In this document: positions 3,311 to 22,900 of the stretch, in pieces
Layout: each line of letters opens with the position of its first letter
Position numbering within the stretch: the first letter of the stretch is position 1
Notes under the pieces: model-generated
The model's database searches: none
What the model saw: only the letters and a program-made list of their open reading frames with translations
What the model was told of the DNA's origin: nothing
Translations under genes and position numbers: made by a program
Source of the DNA: Stenotrophomonas maltophilia
Lineage (GTDB): Bacteria > Pseudomonadota > Gammaproteobacteria > Xanthomonadales > Xanthomonadaceae
Assembly: GCF_001676385.1 (NCBI RefSeq)
Contig: NZ_LYVJ01000002.1
Coordinates: 62,001 to 126,000, forward strand
Length of the DNA: 64,000 nucleotides
Direction of reading: 5' to 3'

Positions 3311-3395
<85 letters not shown>

Positions 3396-5247: not shown

Positions 5248-5332
<85 letters not shown>

Positions 5333-16945: not shown

Positions 16946-18334
16946 TCAGCTCCTGCGCCGCTCGATCAGGTTCAGCAGTGGCCCAGTCATCGCGGTGGTC
17001 ACCAGCGCCATGATCACCAGCACCGCGAACAGGCGGTCGCCGAGCAGGCCCAGTTCGTACCCGAGGTTGAGCACGATCAGCTCCATCAGGCCACGGGTGT
17101 TCATCAGCGCGCCCAACCGCCACGCTTCGCGTGATGGCATGCCCGCGCTGCGTGCGGCGCTGAAGGTGCCCAGCAGCTTGCCCGTCGTGGCCACCGCAAT
17201 CACCACCACGCACAGCACGATGTCACTGGCCTGCAGCGCGTCGGCGCGCATGCGCAGCCCGGTCATGGCGAAGAACAACGGCAGCAGCAGCGTGACCGCG
17301 AACGGTTCGACGCGGGCCATCAGCAGGTCGCGCAGCTGCGCGTTGGACGATACCGCGACGCCCGCTGCGAACGCGCCGAACAGCGCGTGGATGCCCAGCA
17401 CCTCGGTGACCAACGCACTGCCCAGCGACAGCAACAGGATGCCCAGCAGCCAGCGGCCTTCACGTCCCGGCGCGATCTGCTGGCGGGCGAACCATGGCTT
17501 CACCAGCCCCAGCATCAGCGTCACGAATGCAACCACGCACAGCAGGTTGAGGCTGGCCGGCAGCCATCCGCTGGCCTGGGCGGCAGCCACGATCAGCGCC
17601 AGCAGGCACCATGCCGTGGCATCGCCCAATGCCGCGCAGGCGATGGCGGTCTGGCCCAGCGGCGTGTGCGTGGTCCCGCGATCGGCAAGGATGCGCAACA
17701 GCACGGGGAACGCGGTGATGCTCATCGAGATGCCGACGAACAACGCAAATGCAGTGAAGCCCACGCCCTGCGGGCCATGCTGCGGATACAGCCAGATCGC
17801 CAGGGCAACGCCGAGTACGAACGGCACTGCAATGCCGGCATGGCTGACCGTGAAGGCGAAACGCCGGCGGCCACGCAGCGCCGCCAGGTCCAGCTCGGCA
17901 CCGGCCACCAGCAGGAACATCAGCACGCCCAGCTGGCTGAGCATGCCCAGCGGACCCAGCGAGCTGGCCGGGAACAGGGCGCCATGCAGCTGTGGCAGCA
18001 GGCTCCCCAGCACCAGCGGGCCCATCATCAGGCCGGCGGCCATCTCGCCGATCACTGCCGGTTGCCCAAGGCGCTTGAGCATCGCCCCCGCGCCCTTGGC
18101 CACCAGCAGCAGCACCAGCAACTGCAACAGGAACAGGCCCAGCGGTGACGCCAGGTGGTGCGCCCAGCTACCTTCGGAGGCGACTGCCGCGCGCGCGACC
18201 GCCCGGGGGGCTTCGGGGCCCGCATAGCGGGCCAGCAACACCCCGGCCAGCAGCGGTGCACCCGCCCAGGCCAGGTAGCGCCTCCCCCATTTCTTCGGCG
18301 GCACATCGCCGCCTGCCCGTACGTCCATGAACAT
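16946..18334 (-). CDS. CPA2-type cation/proton antiporter
   Basis: 462-residue Na+/H+ exchanger-like membrane protein with about 12-13 hydrophobic segments. The conserved IGEMAAGLMMGPLVLGSLLP segment near residue 97, LGVLMFLLVAGAELDL (with the acidic ion-binding pair region) and the end segment NTRGLMELIVLNLG are typical of the KefB/NapA/GerN group. No C-terminal TrkA-N/RCK domain is present, so this is a stand-alone antiporter. The ATG at 18334 is preferred over a longer frame because GGGGA lies just upstream and the extra residues look non-coding. Transported cation not determinable. Confidence 0.85.
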   Translation of the reverse strand: MFMDVRAGGDVPPKKWGRRYLAWAGAPLLAGVLLARYAGPEAPRAVARAAVASEGSWAHHLASPLGLFLLQLLVLLLVAKGAGAMLKRLGQPAVIGEMAAGLMMGPLVLGSLLPQLHGALFPASSLGPLGMLSQLGVLMFLLVAGAELDLAALRGRRRFAFTVSHAGIAVPFVLGVALAIWLYPQHGPQGVGFTAFALFVGISMSITAFPVLLRILADRGTTHTPLGQTAIACAALGDATAWCLLALIVAAAQASGWLPASLNLLCVVAFVTLMLGLVKPWFARQQIAPGREGRWLLGILLLSLGSALVTEVLGIHALFGAFAAGVAVSSNAQLRDLLMARVEPFAVTLLLPLFFAMTGLRMRADALQASDIVLCVVVIAVATTGKLLGTFSAARSAGMPSREAWRLGALMNTRGLMELIVLNLGYELGLLGDRLFAVLVIMALVTTAMTGPLLNLIERRRS

Positions 18335-18367
18335 TCCCCAATGTGCAGGGGGGCGATGATACGTCGC

Positions 18368-18433
18368 AAAAAGGGGATGGAGAGCATCACGTCGTTCATG
18401 CCACAAACGACTTAATCCCCTCCGTCCCCTTTT
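18368..18433 (-). repeat. Nested inverted repeat, probable asnB terminator
   Basis: Outer arms AAAAAGGGGATGGAG (18368-18382) and CTCCGTCCCCTTTT (18420-18433) pair with one wobble. Inner arms GTCGTT (18391) and AACGAC (18406) form a second stem. Read on the minus strand the structure follows the asnB stop by 6 bp and ends in CCCC plus T5, so it can terminate asnB. The outer sequence resembles RAYT-type REP elements of proteobacteria (from memory). Confidence 0.6.
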
Positions 18434-18439
18434 GGGGGC

Positions 18440-20131
18440 TCAGGCCAGGGCCTGCTCGTGCACGCCGGCGATCGCGCGGCCCGACGGATCGGCAGCCGCG
18501 GCGAAGCTGGCATCCCAGGCAATGGCCGCCGGCGATGAACAGGCGATGGACTTGCCTCCCGGCACGGTCTCGGCGGCCGCCCGGCTCGGGAAGAACTGCT
18601 CGAACAGATGGCGGTAGTAATACGCCTCCTTGGTCTGCGGCGGGTTGTGCGGAAAGCGCTTGCCCGCCGCCGCCAGCACGCGGTCGCTGACCTGCGCCTC
18701 GGCGTGCGCCTTCAGCCCATCGATCCAGCCGTAACCCACCCCATCGCTGAACTGTTCCTTCTGCCGCCACAGGATGCTGTCCGGCAGGTAGCCGTCGAAC
18801 GCCTCGCGGAGCACCGCCTTCTCGATGCGACGGCCGCCGAAGCCGGCATCCACCATCTTGTGCGCAGCATCGAAGCGCATTGCCACATCAAGGAACTCAC
18901 GGTCGAGGAACGGCACCCGCGGCTCCACGCCCCAGGCCATCATCGACTTGTTGGCGCGCAGGCAGTCGTAGTTGTGCAGCGCATCGAGCTTGCGCACCAG
19001 CTCATCGTGGAATTCACGCGCATCCGGCGCCTTGTGGAAGTACAGGTAGCCACCGAAGATCTCGTCGCTGCCCTCGCCCGACAGCACCATCTTCACTCCC
19101 ATCGCCTTGATCCGCCGCGCCAGCAGGAACATCGGCGTCGACGCGCGGATGGTGGTGACGTCGTACGTCTCGATATGGCGGATCACTTCCGGCAGCGCAT
19201 CCAGGCCCTCCTCGAAGGTGTACTCGAAACCGTGGTGCACGGTGCCGAGCGCTTCGGCGGCGATGGCAGCGGCGGCCAGATCGGGCGAGCCCTTCAAACC
19301 GATCGCGAACGAGTGCAACCGCGGCCACCACGCTTCGCTCTGGCCACCGTCCTCGATGCGGCGACGCGCATAGCGTGCCGCGACGGCCGCCACCAGCGAC
19401 GAATCCAGGCCGCCGGACAGCAGGACGCCATACGGCACGTCGCTCATCAGCTGGCGTTCCACCGCATGCTCGAAGGCCTGGCGCAGTTCGCCCAGATCGG
19501 CCTGGCGACCCTGCACGTCGGCATAGTCGCGCCACGGTTGCTGGTAATAGCGCACCAGCTCTCCGCTGGCGCTGTCGAAATAGTGGCCCGGCGGGAACTG
19601 CGCGACATCGGCGCAGGTGTCGACCAATGCCTTCATTTCCGAAGCCACGCGCAGGCGCCCCTGGGCATCGTGGCCCCAGTACAGCGGCACCACACCGACC
19701 GGGTCGCGCGCCACCAGCACACGACCGGCGTCGCGGTCCCACAGCGCGAAGGCGAAGATGCCGTTGAGCTGCTCGAGCCACTGCGCGGGCGATCCACCCT
19801 GGCGGTACAACGCGTTGATCACCTCGCAGTCCGAGCCGGTCTGGAAGTCATAGGCGGTGGTCAGTGCCGCCTTCAACCGCTGGTGGTTGTAGATCTCGCC
19901 GTTCACCGCCAGCGCCAGCTGGCCATCGGCCGAGAGCAGCGGCTGCGAGCCACCCGCGGGATCGACGATGGCCAGCCGCTCGTGGACCAGCAACGCACCA
20001 TCGTCGAGGTACACGCCGCTCCAGTCCGGGCCCCGATGGCGCTGGCGCTGCGACAGTTCCAGCGCGTGGCGGCGCAGGGCAGGAAGATCGTCACCGGCCT
20101 GCAGGCCGAAGAGTCCGAAGATCGAACACAT
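18440..20131 (-). CDS. asnB: Asparagine synthase (glutamine-hydrolysing)
   Basis: 563-residue cytoplasmic enzyme: aspartate + glutamine + ATP give asparagine + glutamate + AMP + PPi. Cys2 (Cys1 after Met removal) is the glutaminase nucleophile. The N-terminal Ntn domain includes RHRGPDWSG and NGEIYNH. The synthetase domain carries the PP-loop SGGLDSS (239-245) and LSGEGSDEIFGGY. Length fits E. coli AsnB (554). The start at 20131 is fixed by Cys2 and by AGGAG 8 bp upstream. The gene follows dapE on the same strand, but a leader peptide and terminator intervene (20213-20370), so expression is probably set by attenuation in response to charged tRNA-Asn. Confidence 0.96.
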   Translation of the reverse strand: MCSIFGLFGLQAGDDLPALRRHALELSQRQRHRGPDWSGVYLDDGALLVHERLAIVDPAGGSQPLLSADGQLALAVNGEIYNHQRLKAALTTAYDFQTGSDCEVINALYRQGGSPAQWLEQLNGIFAFALWDRDAGRVLVARDPVGVVPLYWGHDAQGRLRVASEMKALVDTCADVAQFPPGHYFDSASGELVRYYQQPWRDYADVQGRQADLGELRQAFEHAVERQLMSDVPYGVLLSGGLDSSLVAAVAARYARRRIEDGGQSEAWWPRLHSFAIGLKGSPDLAAAAIAAEALGTVHHGFEYTFEEGLDALPEVIRHIETYDVTTIRASTPMFLLARRIKAMGVKMVLSGEGSDEIFGGYLYFHKAPDAREFHDELVRKLDALHNYDCLRANKSMMAWGVEPRVPFLDREFLDVAMRFDAAHKMVDAGFGGRRIEKAVLREAFDGYLPDSILWRQKEQFSDGVGYGWIDGLKAHAEAQVSDRVLAAAGKRFPHNPPQTKEAYYYRHLFEQFFPSRAAAETVPGGKSIACSSPAAIAWDASFAAAADPSGRAIAGVHEQALA

Positions 20132-20212
20132 GGGGGAAGCTCCTGTTGGGGATTTCACGGGTGGGGGTGTTCGACCGGCCATCCAGGCCCGGGTGGGGCT
20201 GCGCCCGGGCAC

Positions 20213-20243
20213 AAAAAAACCCGCATCGACCGATGCGGGTTTT
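20213..20243 (-). terminator. Attenuator terminator upstream of asnB
   Basis: On the minus strand: A4, stem CCCGCATC / GATGCGGG with a GGTC loop, then seven U. Further A-U pairs extend the stem base. It ends 81 nt before the asnB ATG and lies between a leader ORF and the gene, the classical position of an attenuator. Its 5' arm (20239-20230) is perfectly complementary over 10 nt to codons 25-28 of the leader ORF. Confidence 0.85.
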
Positions 20244-20268
20244 CTGGTGTCCGGGCGTGTGTTGCTGT

Positions 20269-20370
20269 CTATCTACCCAGGGCGCAGTCCCGCATCGGCC
20301 ACGCACGATTATTCGCGCGCAGATTATTGCGGTTGTTGTTATTGACGGCGGTGGCCAGGCGGATCGACAT
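20269..20370 (-). CDS. Asn-rich leader peptide of asnB (33 aa)
   Basis: ATG at 20370, TAG at 20271-20269, 33 codons. Asn occupies residues 10-13, 15-16 and 20-21: eight of 33, against a few percent normally. Five of the eight are AAT although the neighbouring genes strongly prefer AAC. The stop lies 25 nt before the terminator hairpin. Upstream, TTGCGC-N17-TAGGGT could be a promoter whose start point would fall at or next to the ATG, giving a nearly leaderless message; alternatively TTAGGG is a weak ribosome site. No symbol is established; it would be the asnB leader. Confidence 0.8.
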   Translation of the reverse strand: MSIRLATAVNNNNRNNLRANNRAWPMRDCALGR

Positions 20371-20433
20371 GGCACCGACCCTAACCCGGTTTCCGGCACG
20401 GCGCAACCGTTGCGTTGGCAACCAGGTGAAGGT

Positions 20434-20500
20434 GTGCCGACCAACGGTCGGCACCCAGCAGTCGGCGCCCACAGGGGTAGCGCCGGGCCGTGCCCGGCGC
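20434..20500. repeat. Two REP palindromes between dapE and the asnB leader
   Basis: GTGCCGACC / GGTCGGCAC around AAC (20434-20454), then a GTAG-headed SMAG with GCGCCGGGC / GCCCGGCGC-like arms (20477-20500), directly after the dapE stop at 20507. Probably a 3' boundary of the dapE message. With the leader this accounts for the 375-bp gap 20132-20506. Confidence 0.7.
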
Positions 20501-20506
20501 CATGCC

Positions 20507-21634
20507 TCACACCAGCAGTCGCTCCACCAGCCGCTGGTACAGCCCCGGCAGTGCCTCCAGCTCGTCCACGCGTACATTCTCATCCACCTGGTGGATGCTG
20601 GCGTTGACCGGCCCCACTTCGATGCACTGCGCACCCAACGGCGCGATGAAGCGGGCATCGGAGGTGCCACCGCCGGTACTTTCCTCAGGGGCACCACCGA
20701 TGTGCTCGGCCAGCACCGCGCGCGCGGTGGCCCGCAGCGTGCCTTCCGGGGTGTAGAACGGCTCGCCGCTTCGATGCCATTTCAGCGCGTACTGCAGGCC
20801 ATGGCGATCCAGCAGTGCGGTGATCTCCGCTTCCAGCTTCGGCGCATCCCAGTGCGGGTTGTAGCGGATGTTGAAATCCACTTCGAGCTCGCCGGGAATC
20901 ACGTTGTTGGCACCGGTACCGGCGTGGATGTTGGAGATCTGCAGGCTGGTCGGCGGGAAGCTCTCATACCCCTCGTCCCAGCGTCGCGCAGTCAGCTCGG
21001 CCAGGGCCGGGGCCGCCCGGTGGATCGGGTTGCGTGCCTTGTCCGGATACGCGACGTGCCCCTGTACGCCCTGCACCCGCAGCTTGGCCGACAGGCTGCC
21101 ACGACGCCCCACGCGCAGCAGGTCACCCAGCGTCGCGGTCGAGGACGGCTCACCGGTGATGCACCAGTCGATGCGCTGGCCGCGCTCGGCGAACAGGCGC
21201 GCGACGTGACGCACGCCATCGATGGCATCGCCCTCCTCGTCGCTGGTCAGCAGCACCGCCAGCGTGCCGGGGTGATCCGGATGCGCAGCAACGAACTGCT
21301 CGGCAGCCACCACGAACGCGGCCACGCTGCCCTTCATGTCGGCGGCGCCGCGGCCATACAGCGCCCCATCACGGATCTGCGGGCTGAACGGATCGCTGGC
21401 CCAGGCCTCACGGGGGCCCGGCGGCACCACGTCGGTGTGGCCCAGCAGCACCAGCACCGGCGCCCCCTGGCCGTGGGTGGCCCACAGGTTGTCGACCTCG
21501 CCCAGCCGCAGGTGCTCGCACTGGAACCCGGCCTGCTCCAGGCGCGCCGCCAGCAGTGCCTGGCAGCCAGCATCGTCCGGCGTCACCGAGGGCCGTGCGA
21601 TCAGTTCGCAGGCCAGGTCGAGGACCGCGCTCAT
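20507..21634 (-). CDS. dapE: Succinyl-diaminopimelate desuccinylase
   Basis: 375-residue M20-family zinc hydrolase, converting N-succinyl-LL-diaminopimelate to LL-diaminopimelate and succinate in lysine and peptidoglycan synthesis. Metal-binding stretches are visible: [10 protein letters not shown] (His66, Asp68), [19 protein letters not shown] (the catalytic Glu pair), GEPSS and the late His in NASIHQVDE. Its ATG overlaps the stop of the ArsC-like gene as ATGA (21631-21634). Works with dapD, encoded three genes upstream in the same run. Confidence 0.96.
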
Positions 21635-21996
21635 GCGTCACCGACGCCGAAGCGTGCCTTGAAGCCGTTGTCGCTGAAACCCTGGCTGACCATGCCGTCG
21701 GCGGTGACCACCACCGGGCGCTTGATCAGCTGCGGGTACTCGCGCAGCAGCAGCTTCCATTCGGCATCGGACTCGGCCGCCTTGCGGTTGTCCGGCAGCT
21801 GGCGCCAGGTGGTGGAGGACCTGTTGACCATCGCGGCCAGCCCTCCCAGCTGCGCGGCCCACGCCAGCAACGTCTCCGGGCTCGGCTTGGTGTCGCGGTA
21901 GTCGACGAAGGTGTACGGCACACCGAAGCGGTCCAGCCACCTGGTCGCCTTCTTGCAGGTATCGCAGTTCTTCAAACCGTAGACAGTAGTGCTCAT
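21631..21996 (-). CDS. ArsC/Spx-family reductase-like protein (YffB type)
   Basis: 121 residues with a thioredoxin-like fold. The N-terminal motif KNCDTCKKA (CxxC) and late RPVVVTADG follow the YffB/ArsC family. YffB-type proteins are not true arsenate reductases and their role is poorly known; they are often encoded immediately before dapE, as here and in E. coli. The ATG at 21996 is chosen over one six bases upstream because the domain starts at once. The stop overlaps dapE by 4 bp. Confidence 0.9.
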
Positions 21997-22033
21997 GGCC
22001 ATCCGTGATGCTGGAAAACAGACGGCCAGAATC

Positions 22034-22900
22034 TCACAACAGGCGCTCGGACACGACCCGGAACGGGACCTGGGGCAACCGGAAGGCCAGCCCCTCGTGC
22101 AACGCCACGCCCATTGCCTGCAGCCTCGGGCACTGCGGCTCGCCGTCCAGCCGCAACGGTTGCAGGTGGGCGATTTCCACCAGCAGCGCGATGCGGGTGC
22201 TGGCCCAGTGCCGGTCACAGGTTCGGGCGATGGCCTGGTGCTGGCAGGTCAGGAAGCGCAGCAGGGCCTGGTGGCCGCCGAAGGCCGCCCCCCACGCTGC
22301 ATCCTCCCAGCCTGCAGCAGCCTGCCACTGCAGGTGCAGCGCAGGCGCACTGCCCTGCCCGCCTTCGACCACGGTGTGCCCACCGCCATCGGCGCACACC
22401 ACATGCGCGAAGCGCGTGGACAGATGTGGCTGCATGGCATCGCTGAAGGCGCGCGCGCCGGCGACGAAGGCCAGCTGGTCCATCACGTTGCGATCGAACA
22501 GCACCACCGGCGTCCCGTCCGGATCATCGTCACGGCGCAGGTACCAGCGCCAGTTGCTCTGCCTGGGCGACGGCATCAGCGACCGCAGTGGCCCGGCCAG
22601 CGCTGGCCCGAAATGGCCGTGCCGGTAGCTGAGGATGGTGTAAGGCGTGCGTCCGGCATGCACCACGTAATGGTGGCCCGGCGGAGGCGTTGGCGCGTGC
22701 CCTACGTCGACCCACCAGCTCACGTACACCACGTCGCGCACATCGCTGGCCAGCACCGGCATCGGCCAGCGCCGCGACAGCGCGCGGCGCAACCGGGTCC
22801 AGCGCGGGGCGTGCAGCAGGCGCGGCAGCATCCGCCCGAACAGGGTGCCGGACGGATGCCGGTAGATCGCGGACGTCGCCAGATCCTCCGGCGCAGTCAT
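22034..22900 (-). CDS. Uncharacterised protein between dapD and yffB-like gene
   Basis: 288 residues; I do not recognise the family with confidence. It lacks a signal peptide and membrane segments. Trp, Arg and His are frequent (SWWVDVGHAP; RQSNWRWYLRRDDD). It starts 2 bp after the dapD stop and ends 37 bp before the ArsC-like gene, so it belongs to the map/glnD-dapE transcription run. Codon pattern and position support a real gene. A beta-rich ligand-binding fold is possible but is only a guess. Confidence 0.75.
   Translation of the reverse strand: MTAPEDLATSAIYRHPSGTLFGRMLPRLLHAPRWTRLRRALSRRWPMPVLASDVRDVVYVSWWVDVGHAPTPPPGHHYVVHAGRTPYTILSYRHGHFGPALAGPLRSLMPSPRQSNWRWYLRRDDDPDGTPVVLFDRNVMDQLAFVAGARAFSDAMQPHLSTRFAHVVCADGGGHTVVEGGQGSAPALHLQWQAAAGWEDAAWGAAFGGHQALLRFLTCQHQAIARTCDRHWASTRIALLVEIAHLQPLRLDGEPQCPRLQAMGVALHEGLAFRLPQVPFRVVSERLL

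Follow-up and report, generated by a model that had tools for sequence, protein, structure and literature searches.

An asparagine-rich leader ORF and competing RNA pairings upstream of asnB point to a ribosome-mediated attenuator in Stenotrophomonas and related bacteria

Introduction

In Stenotrophomonas maltophilia, a short open reading frame crowded with Asn codons precedes asnB, the gene for asparagine synthase B, and the question raised by this locus is whether the ORF serves to sense the amino acid that the gene product makes. In the Trp, His, Thr, Leu, and Phe leaders of enterobacteria, an ORF with control codons is followed by an intrinsic terminator, and the 5' strand of an alternative antiterminator becomes available when the ribosome stalls. 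The amino acids classically associated with leader attenuation are Trp, His, Thr, Leu, Ile/Val, and Phe, and to our knowledge neither Asn nor asnB belongs to the known leader-peptide attenuator amino acids and genes. An initial annotation, made from the sequence alone, had proposed such a trp/his-type attenuator for this locus, with a control codon that matches the product of the gene. Here, we analyzed the window (a stretch of 64,000 nucleotides from S. maltophilia) together with the asnB upstream regions of its relatives. The conserved Asn runs and antiterminator complementarity described below support that proposal: the locus very probably encodes a transcription attenuator of the ribosome-mediated type, through which the charging of tRNA-Asn governs asnB. 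The observed arrangement of leader, terminator, and asnB is confirmed as real and beyond chance, and from it we infer ribosome stalling, a leaderless start, termination, and a response to Asn.

Results

The asnB upstream region carries, on the minus strand, a 33-codon ORF (20370-20269, stop codon TAG) encoding MSIRLATAVNNNNRNNLRANNRAWPMRDCALGR. Its eight Asn residues occupy positions 10-13, 15-16, and 20-21, and the putative control region, codons 10-21 (AAT AAC AAC AAC CGC AAT AAT CTG CGC GCG AAT AAT), spans 20308-20343. The ORF is placed between dapE, which ends at 20507, and asnB (18440-20131, start ATG at 20131), all three on the minus strand, so that the position and Asn content proposed initially were borne out. 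The presumed controlled gene, a glutamine-hydrolysing asparagine synthase B, matches NCBIfam PRK09431 with 863.3 bits (cut-off 499), and its nearest named AsnB is from S. maltophilia (98%). In a search for AsnB, the genome of the window contained one full AsnB and one distant homologue. A 1097-codon ORF on the plus strand (18608-21901) runs antisense to asnB, the leader, and dapE, and is probably a high-GC artefact.

Among 105,226 stop-free stretches of 14 codons taken from the six reading frames of the window, the leader cluster, with 8 Asn, was the sole case reaching at least 5 Asn. The fold energy of the leader region was also below that of all 200 dinucleotide shuffles (z -3.98). A chance Asn-rich ORF was ruled out by this unique cluster within the window and by the conservation of the leader upstream of asnB.

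A rho-independent terminator with seven U had been proposed between the leader and asnB, and a hairpin with a U7 tract (20213-20219, minus strand; T7 in the DNA) was indeed found there. Its first arm, segment 3 (CCCGCATCGG, 20230-20239, minus strand), would double as the 3' strand of an antiterminator, while its second arm constitutes segment 4 (CGATGCGGG, 20220-20228, minus strand). A simple terminator scan of the window did not list this hairpin, probably because pairing of its arms can continue into the T run. The 5' strand of the antiterminator, segment 2 (CCGATGCGGG, 20289-20298, minus strand), lies inside the leader ORF at codons 25-28. Segments 2 (20298-20289) and 3 (20239-20230) are perfect complements, and the 10-nt match between the leader codons and the first terminator arm noted earlier thus holds.

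The part of the proposal that fared less well is a 1:2 pause hairpin formed by GGCCAC (20356-20351) and GTGGCC (20302-20297). Both sequences are present on the minus strand, and they pair when the modelled ribosome occupies the stop codon; their mutual pairing is absent from the unmasked minimum-energy fold, and GGCCAC occurs 5' of the first Asn codon in 15 of 200 leaders, which rules the pairing out as a conserved element. Segment 2 was predicted to pair mainly with the leader sequence preceding the Asn codons in 56/200 leaders, and with any 5' sequence in 166/200. In the window, another predicted hairpin (20299-20322, minus strand) immediately precedes segment 2, the last two Asn codons being located at the loop. 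A similar fold appears in relatives: among leaders of the Stenotrophomonas/Xanthomonas type, 16 of the 20 shown (of 42) have a hairpin of 9-10 pairs abutting segment 2. This hairpin may act as the pause hairpin, or it may stack on the 2:3 helix.

These elements suggest the following mechanism. Transcription would begin on the A of the leader AUG or on a neighbouring base, and the resulting leaderless mRNA would be translated during its synthesis. When free Asn is scarce, Asn-tRNA would become scarce as well and the ribosome would stall in the Asn run, leaving segment 2 free to pair with segment 3, so that the terminator would be blocked and asnB transcribed. When Asn-tRNA is plentiful, the ribosome would reach the stop codon and cover segment 2, the 3:4 terminator would form, and asnB would not be read.

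The conservation of the leader was assessed in the DNA upstream of asnB from 80 named loci and from further genomes of the family and order of the window (268 regions, 248 distinct), a leader being called when some stretch of 14 codons contained at least 4 Asn. For the family, 150 of the 178 genomes with an asnB match were examined (G040 included); G023, which has no upstream DNA, is not part of this set. From the 57 asnB matches outside the family, we took all those of two leader-bearing families (16 and 3) and 20 of the remaining 38. Two regions were dropped, one having no start found (L250) and one offering 60 nt of upstream sequence (L040). Asn-rich leaders preceded asnB in 141/149 genomes of the family, which bears out the expectation that the Asn runs are conserved in close relatives, and in 14/15 and 3/3 genomes of the two related families of the order. 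They were likewise present at 62 of the 65 named loci of the order, a set that overlaps the genome sets and includes two loci titled only Pseudomonadota or Proteobacteria. None was found at 14 named outgroup loci or in the one family member with a divergent asnB. In four other families of the order, 2/20 genomes passed the Asn count, both judged to do so by chance; L252 and L262, which have 4 Asn and belong to families without the leader, were left out.

Six of the regions that failed the count (L026, L096, L163, L165, L193, and L249) still display, by eye, a poorer leader and a terminator. On the opposite strand, Asn counts peaked at 2 and never exceeded 4 (265 regions). By loose criteria, a hairpin with a T-rich tail followed the leader in 204/205 cases. 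At one locus (L195) the leader is displaced far upstream of asnB, and at two (L188 and L204) it is not recognisable; by eye, GC-rich repeat-like stretches adjoin asnB in L188 and L195. Two metagenome-assembled genomes titled Holophagales (L035) and Deltaproteobacteria (L070) carry an AsnB that falls inside the Lysobacterales AsnB group, without the leader, through either misbinning or transfer. Some family members, such as G040, G004, and G022, contain a lower-scoring, divergent AsnB (64% identity in G040).

The broad distribution of the leader bears on whether the hairpin is merely the 3' terminator of dapE, with an accidental Asn ORF beside it. In the window, dapE does share the strand of the hairpin and ends about 265 nt before it, but this interval contains a conserved promoter-like block as well as the leader, and the Asn density of the leader is unique in the window. 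Furthermore, a dapE match was found at 18 of the 80 named loci, and 46 leader-bearing loci lack dapE in their upstream DNA (up to 2.5 kb, and less than 1.5 kb for five of the 46). The leader thus follows asnB rather than dapE and stays with it where dapE is not upstream. This already contradicts the dapE terminator reading, which we ruled out and regard as extremely improbable.

Codon usage within the leaders speaks to a further possibility, that the leader acts through Rho access or general translation speed and that its Asn codons are merely slow. AAT, rare in asnB, is enriched in the leaders, accounting for 591 of 1268 leader Asn codons versus 80 of 768 in full asnB genes preceded by a leader. 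However, the common codon AAC still makes up 677/1268 leader Asn codons, and conservation extends to an intrinsic terminator and the pairing that competes with it, leaving such an effect very unlikely beside attenuation by Asn-specific stalling. In an alignment of 34 leaders, AAC and AAT replace each other where Asn is retained, a synonymous exchange that points to selection at the amino-acid level.

Compensatory changes had been expected in both helices if the attenuator is real, and they were found in both. In an alignment of 53 sequences, the 3:4 terminator helix was 96.1% paired with 67 two-sided cells. In the same alignment, 75.9% of cells of the 2:3 helix were paired, compared with 69.1 +/- 0.9 in shuffles (0/500) and at most 41.8% in slid controls. 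Two-sided cells in this helix numbered 34 versus 19.8 in shuffles (0/500); the pairs of this helix in which a two-sided change occurred at all numbered 5 versus 4.4, which is no increase over shuffles (208/500 shuffles reach 5). Pairing energies agree, as the 2:3 duplex of each leader's own segments averaged -16.2 kcal/mol versus -14.5 +/- 0.2 kcal/mol when arms were permuted between species (86 arm types; 0/1000). When single leaders were shuffled by mononucleotide, the native 2:3 duplex ranked in the best 5 of 100 for only 131/204.

The clearest case of co-change involves the motif P[RQ][AV][GD]D, found near the C-terminus of 60/203 leaders. Pro-Arg leaders carry a CCCGC terminator arm (44/44), and Pro-Gln leaders carry CCTGC (16/16). 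In the alignment, five terminators with that U (CCTGC) keep the terminator pair, four as U-G and one as U-A. Since the terminators keep their pair mostly as U-G, the peptide change appears to follow the antiterminator pairing. Mapped onto a phylogeny of 80 AsnB proteins, the Arg/Gln swap corresponds to 3 changes on each side but to only 2 supported pairs that are independent, a number too small for a phylogenetic test to reach significance, and the neighbouring 2:3 pair has no phylogenetic support for co-change on this tree. Co-variation measured against shuffles is inflated by related sequences. An antiterminator using the first terminator arm is therefore backed by good co-variation that is not phylogenetically decisive, because independent co-changes on the AsnB tree are few.

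The same co-change helps to weigh whether the product of the ORF is instead a small Asn-rich protein that acts in its own right, the RNA structure being secondary. A C-terminal RARPMR motif is conserved in leaders of the Stenotrophomonas/Xanthomonas type, as might be expected of such a protein. Yet the codons of the conserved C-terminus form the very stretch of RNA that is complementary to the terminator, and whether this C-terminus carries Arg or Gln tracks the terminator arm. In addition, leaders range from 20 to 50 codons (50 being the limit of the start rule), with a median of 33 codons and 6 Asn, and their N-terminus looks unconserved by eye. We therefore consider an independent protein function highly improbable and an RNA-based attenuator the preferred explanation for this conservation.

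To model the effect of the ribosome, its footprint was imposed as unpaired bases in equilibrium folds, the real race being kinetic. In the window, the terminator had a probability of 1.0 both when no ribosome was placed and when it stood at the stop codon; with the A site on the first Asn codon this value fell to 0.0, and on the fourth it was 0.25, in line with the behaviour anticipated for folds with and without a ribosome. Over 200 leaders, the mean probability of the nascent 2:3 pairing was 0.58 unmasked, 0.68 with the ribosome stalled at the first Asn codon, and 0.16 with the ribosome at the stop codon; the difference between stalled and stop states exceeded 0.05 in 169/200 and was below -0.05 in 6. 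For full-length folds, the mean terminator probability rose from 0.80 with the ribosome stalled to 0.97 with the ribosome at the stop codon (unmasked mean, 0.90), with a shift between stop and stalled states above 0.05 in 55/200 and below -0.05 in 3, and in most leaders the terminator was favoured even when the ribosome was stalled. The stop codon lies 5-7 nt after segment 2 in 108/200 leaders, and a terminating ribosome would thus cover this segment. In the species of the window, the stop codon lies 16-17 nt past segment 2. A ribosome terminating there would shield hardly any of this segment, and in that state the nascent 2:3 pairing stays at 1.0. In these models, the outcome in this species must depend on the passage of the ribosome.

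Leader starts were assigned to the most upstream in-frame ATG at most 50 codons from the stop, giving 200 leaders with 194 unique upstream stretches. In the window, a candidate -35 element (TTGCGC, 20401-20406, minus strand), which corresponds to a conserved T-rich block in relatives, is separated by a 17-nt spacer from a candidate -10 element (TAGGGT, 20378-20383, minus strand) that ends 7 nt before the leader ATG. Both are weak, each with 3/6 matches to the sigma-70 consensus, and a sigma-70 consensus promoter scan of 18000-22500 listed none. Across the 194 unique leaders, T was found at columns -36 and -35 in 51% and 82%, respectively, and G or T at -34 in 87%. The pattern nAnnnT ended 6-7 nt before the leader ATG in 136/194 leaders, compared with 53/879 other ATGs, and no Shine-Dalgarno-like block was seen in the aligned upstream columns of these leaders. 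Given a conserved promoter ending this close to the ATG, the mRNA is probably leaderless, and the transcript is predicted to start on 20370, the A of the AUG, or at most about 1 nt away.

A sensor of this type would report free Asn if Asn-tRNA is made from it. AsnRS scored over its cut-off in 98/99 family genomes, and GatB in none of the 99, so that Asn-tRNA should come from, and report, free Asn. A transamidation route to Asn-tRNA, which would uncouple the sensor from free Asn, was ruled out by these AsnRS and GatB results.

A covariance model of leader and terminator was built from 53 leaders, its own members matching by construction. Matches with E <1e-7 occurred in 28 of 40 family genomes, one in each and all directly upstream of asnB; a search for other genes under the same element therefore yielded none in these 28. 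The remaining 12 comprise four genomes with no asnB match, seven with a divergent asnB (E 1e-236 to 1e-251), none of which had a strong match to the leader model, and one (G003) whose usual asnB lacks a recognisable leader, an apparent loss. Weaker matches among those listed were read as ordinary terminators. Under stricter filters, a search of 232 genomes of the class gave strong matches only in three genomes of the window's family. At 17 weaker class-wide loci (L279-L295), with 1-5 Asn per 14 codons mid-locus, no convincing leader was found; one of them (L290) reaches 5 Asn per 14 codons, on both strands.

At the gathering thresholds of Rfam 15, there was no match at the leader and three tRNA matches in the whole window. 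Below threshold, the best-scoring family was Thr_leader with 22.8 bits (gathering 55), and Leu_leader reached 20.3 bits (gathering 50). The window also contains three identical tRNA-Leu(CAG) genes on the plus strand (1762-1846, 3311-3395, and 5248-5332), spaced 1.5-1.9 kb apart. They sit in 115-nt repeats, two of which share 83% and 90% identity with the first; protein ORFs occupy the intervals, and the arrangement perhaps reflects serial insertions at a tRNA site.

Discussion

Clustered cognate codons upstream, an intrinsic terminator, and a predicted antiterminator were all found at the asnB locus, and the charging genes of the family should tie the cognate tRNA to free Asn. If correct, this reading extends the apparent range of ribosome-mediated attenuation to asparagine, and it offers a specific, testable asparagine sensor for several bacterial families that include plant pathogens and opportunists. 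Leaders from multiple families, in which Arg/Gln swaps track RNA pairing, also form a natural data set on attenuator evolution, one that extends to initiation on apparently leaderless mRNA.

We found no report of an Asn or asnB leader attenuator in a search of open-access literature assessed by title and the opening of the abstract. Word searches of the main texts of PMC2965389, PMC1262725, PMC3039613, and PMC8632094 likewise revealed no asparagine or asnB leader.

Like the enterobacterial Trp, His, Thr, Leu, and Phe leaders, the asnB leader combines control codons for the product of the pathway, an intrinsic terminator, and an antiterminator whose 5' strand would be freed by stalling. Unlike them, it uses Asn, its segment 2 lies inside the ORF, and its start is predicted to be leaderless; its scores for Rfam Thr_leader (RF00506) and Leu_leader (RF00512) are below the gathering thresholds. 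Asparagine genes of Firmicutes are controlled by T-box riboswitches, which recognise uncharged tRNA by direct binding, with no leader ORF required. The asnB leader resembles them in that it is predicted to sense tRNA-Asn charging via attenuation; unlike T-boxes, it uses a leader ORF, and no T-box match was found in the window at gathering thresholds.

Beyond the classical amino acids, attenuators have been predicted for Cys leaders in Actinobacteria (PMC1262725) and for the uORFC-8-2 motif upstream of cysS in Rhodobacterales, a putative ribosome-mediated attenuator (PMC8632094). The asnB leader shares with uORFC-8-2 its prediction by comparison and its non-classical amino acid, but the latter, as presented there, involves Cys codons and a tRNA synthetase gene in Alphaproteobacteria.

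The predicted leaderless start has a parallel in the trpL attenuator RNA of Sinorhizobium meliloti (rnTrpL), whose 5' end is the ATG of the leader ORF (PMC7298713); that system responds to Trp and belongs to another bacterial class. Trans functions are described in the same paper for both rnTrpL and its peptide, peTrpL. By analogy, the asnB locus might combine a first Asn-specific attenuator with effects in trans, when Asn is plentiful, of its terminated leaderless transcript (about 155 nt) and its Asn-rich peptide, other nitrogen or amino-acid genes being conceivable targets, a speculative extension that we consider unlikely. Compared with these known systems, the asnB leader would employ a classical mechanism while representing a new family by its amino-acid specificity and sequence.
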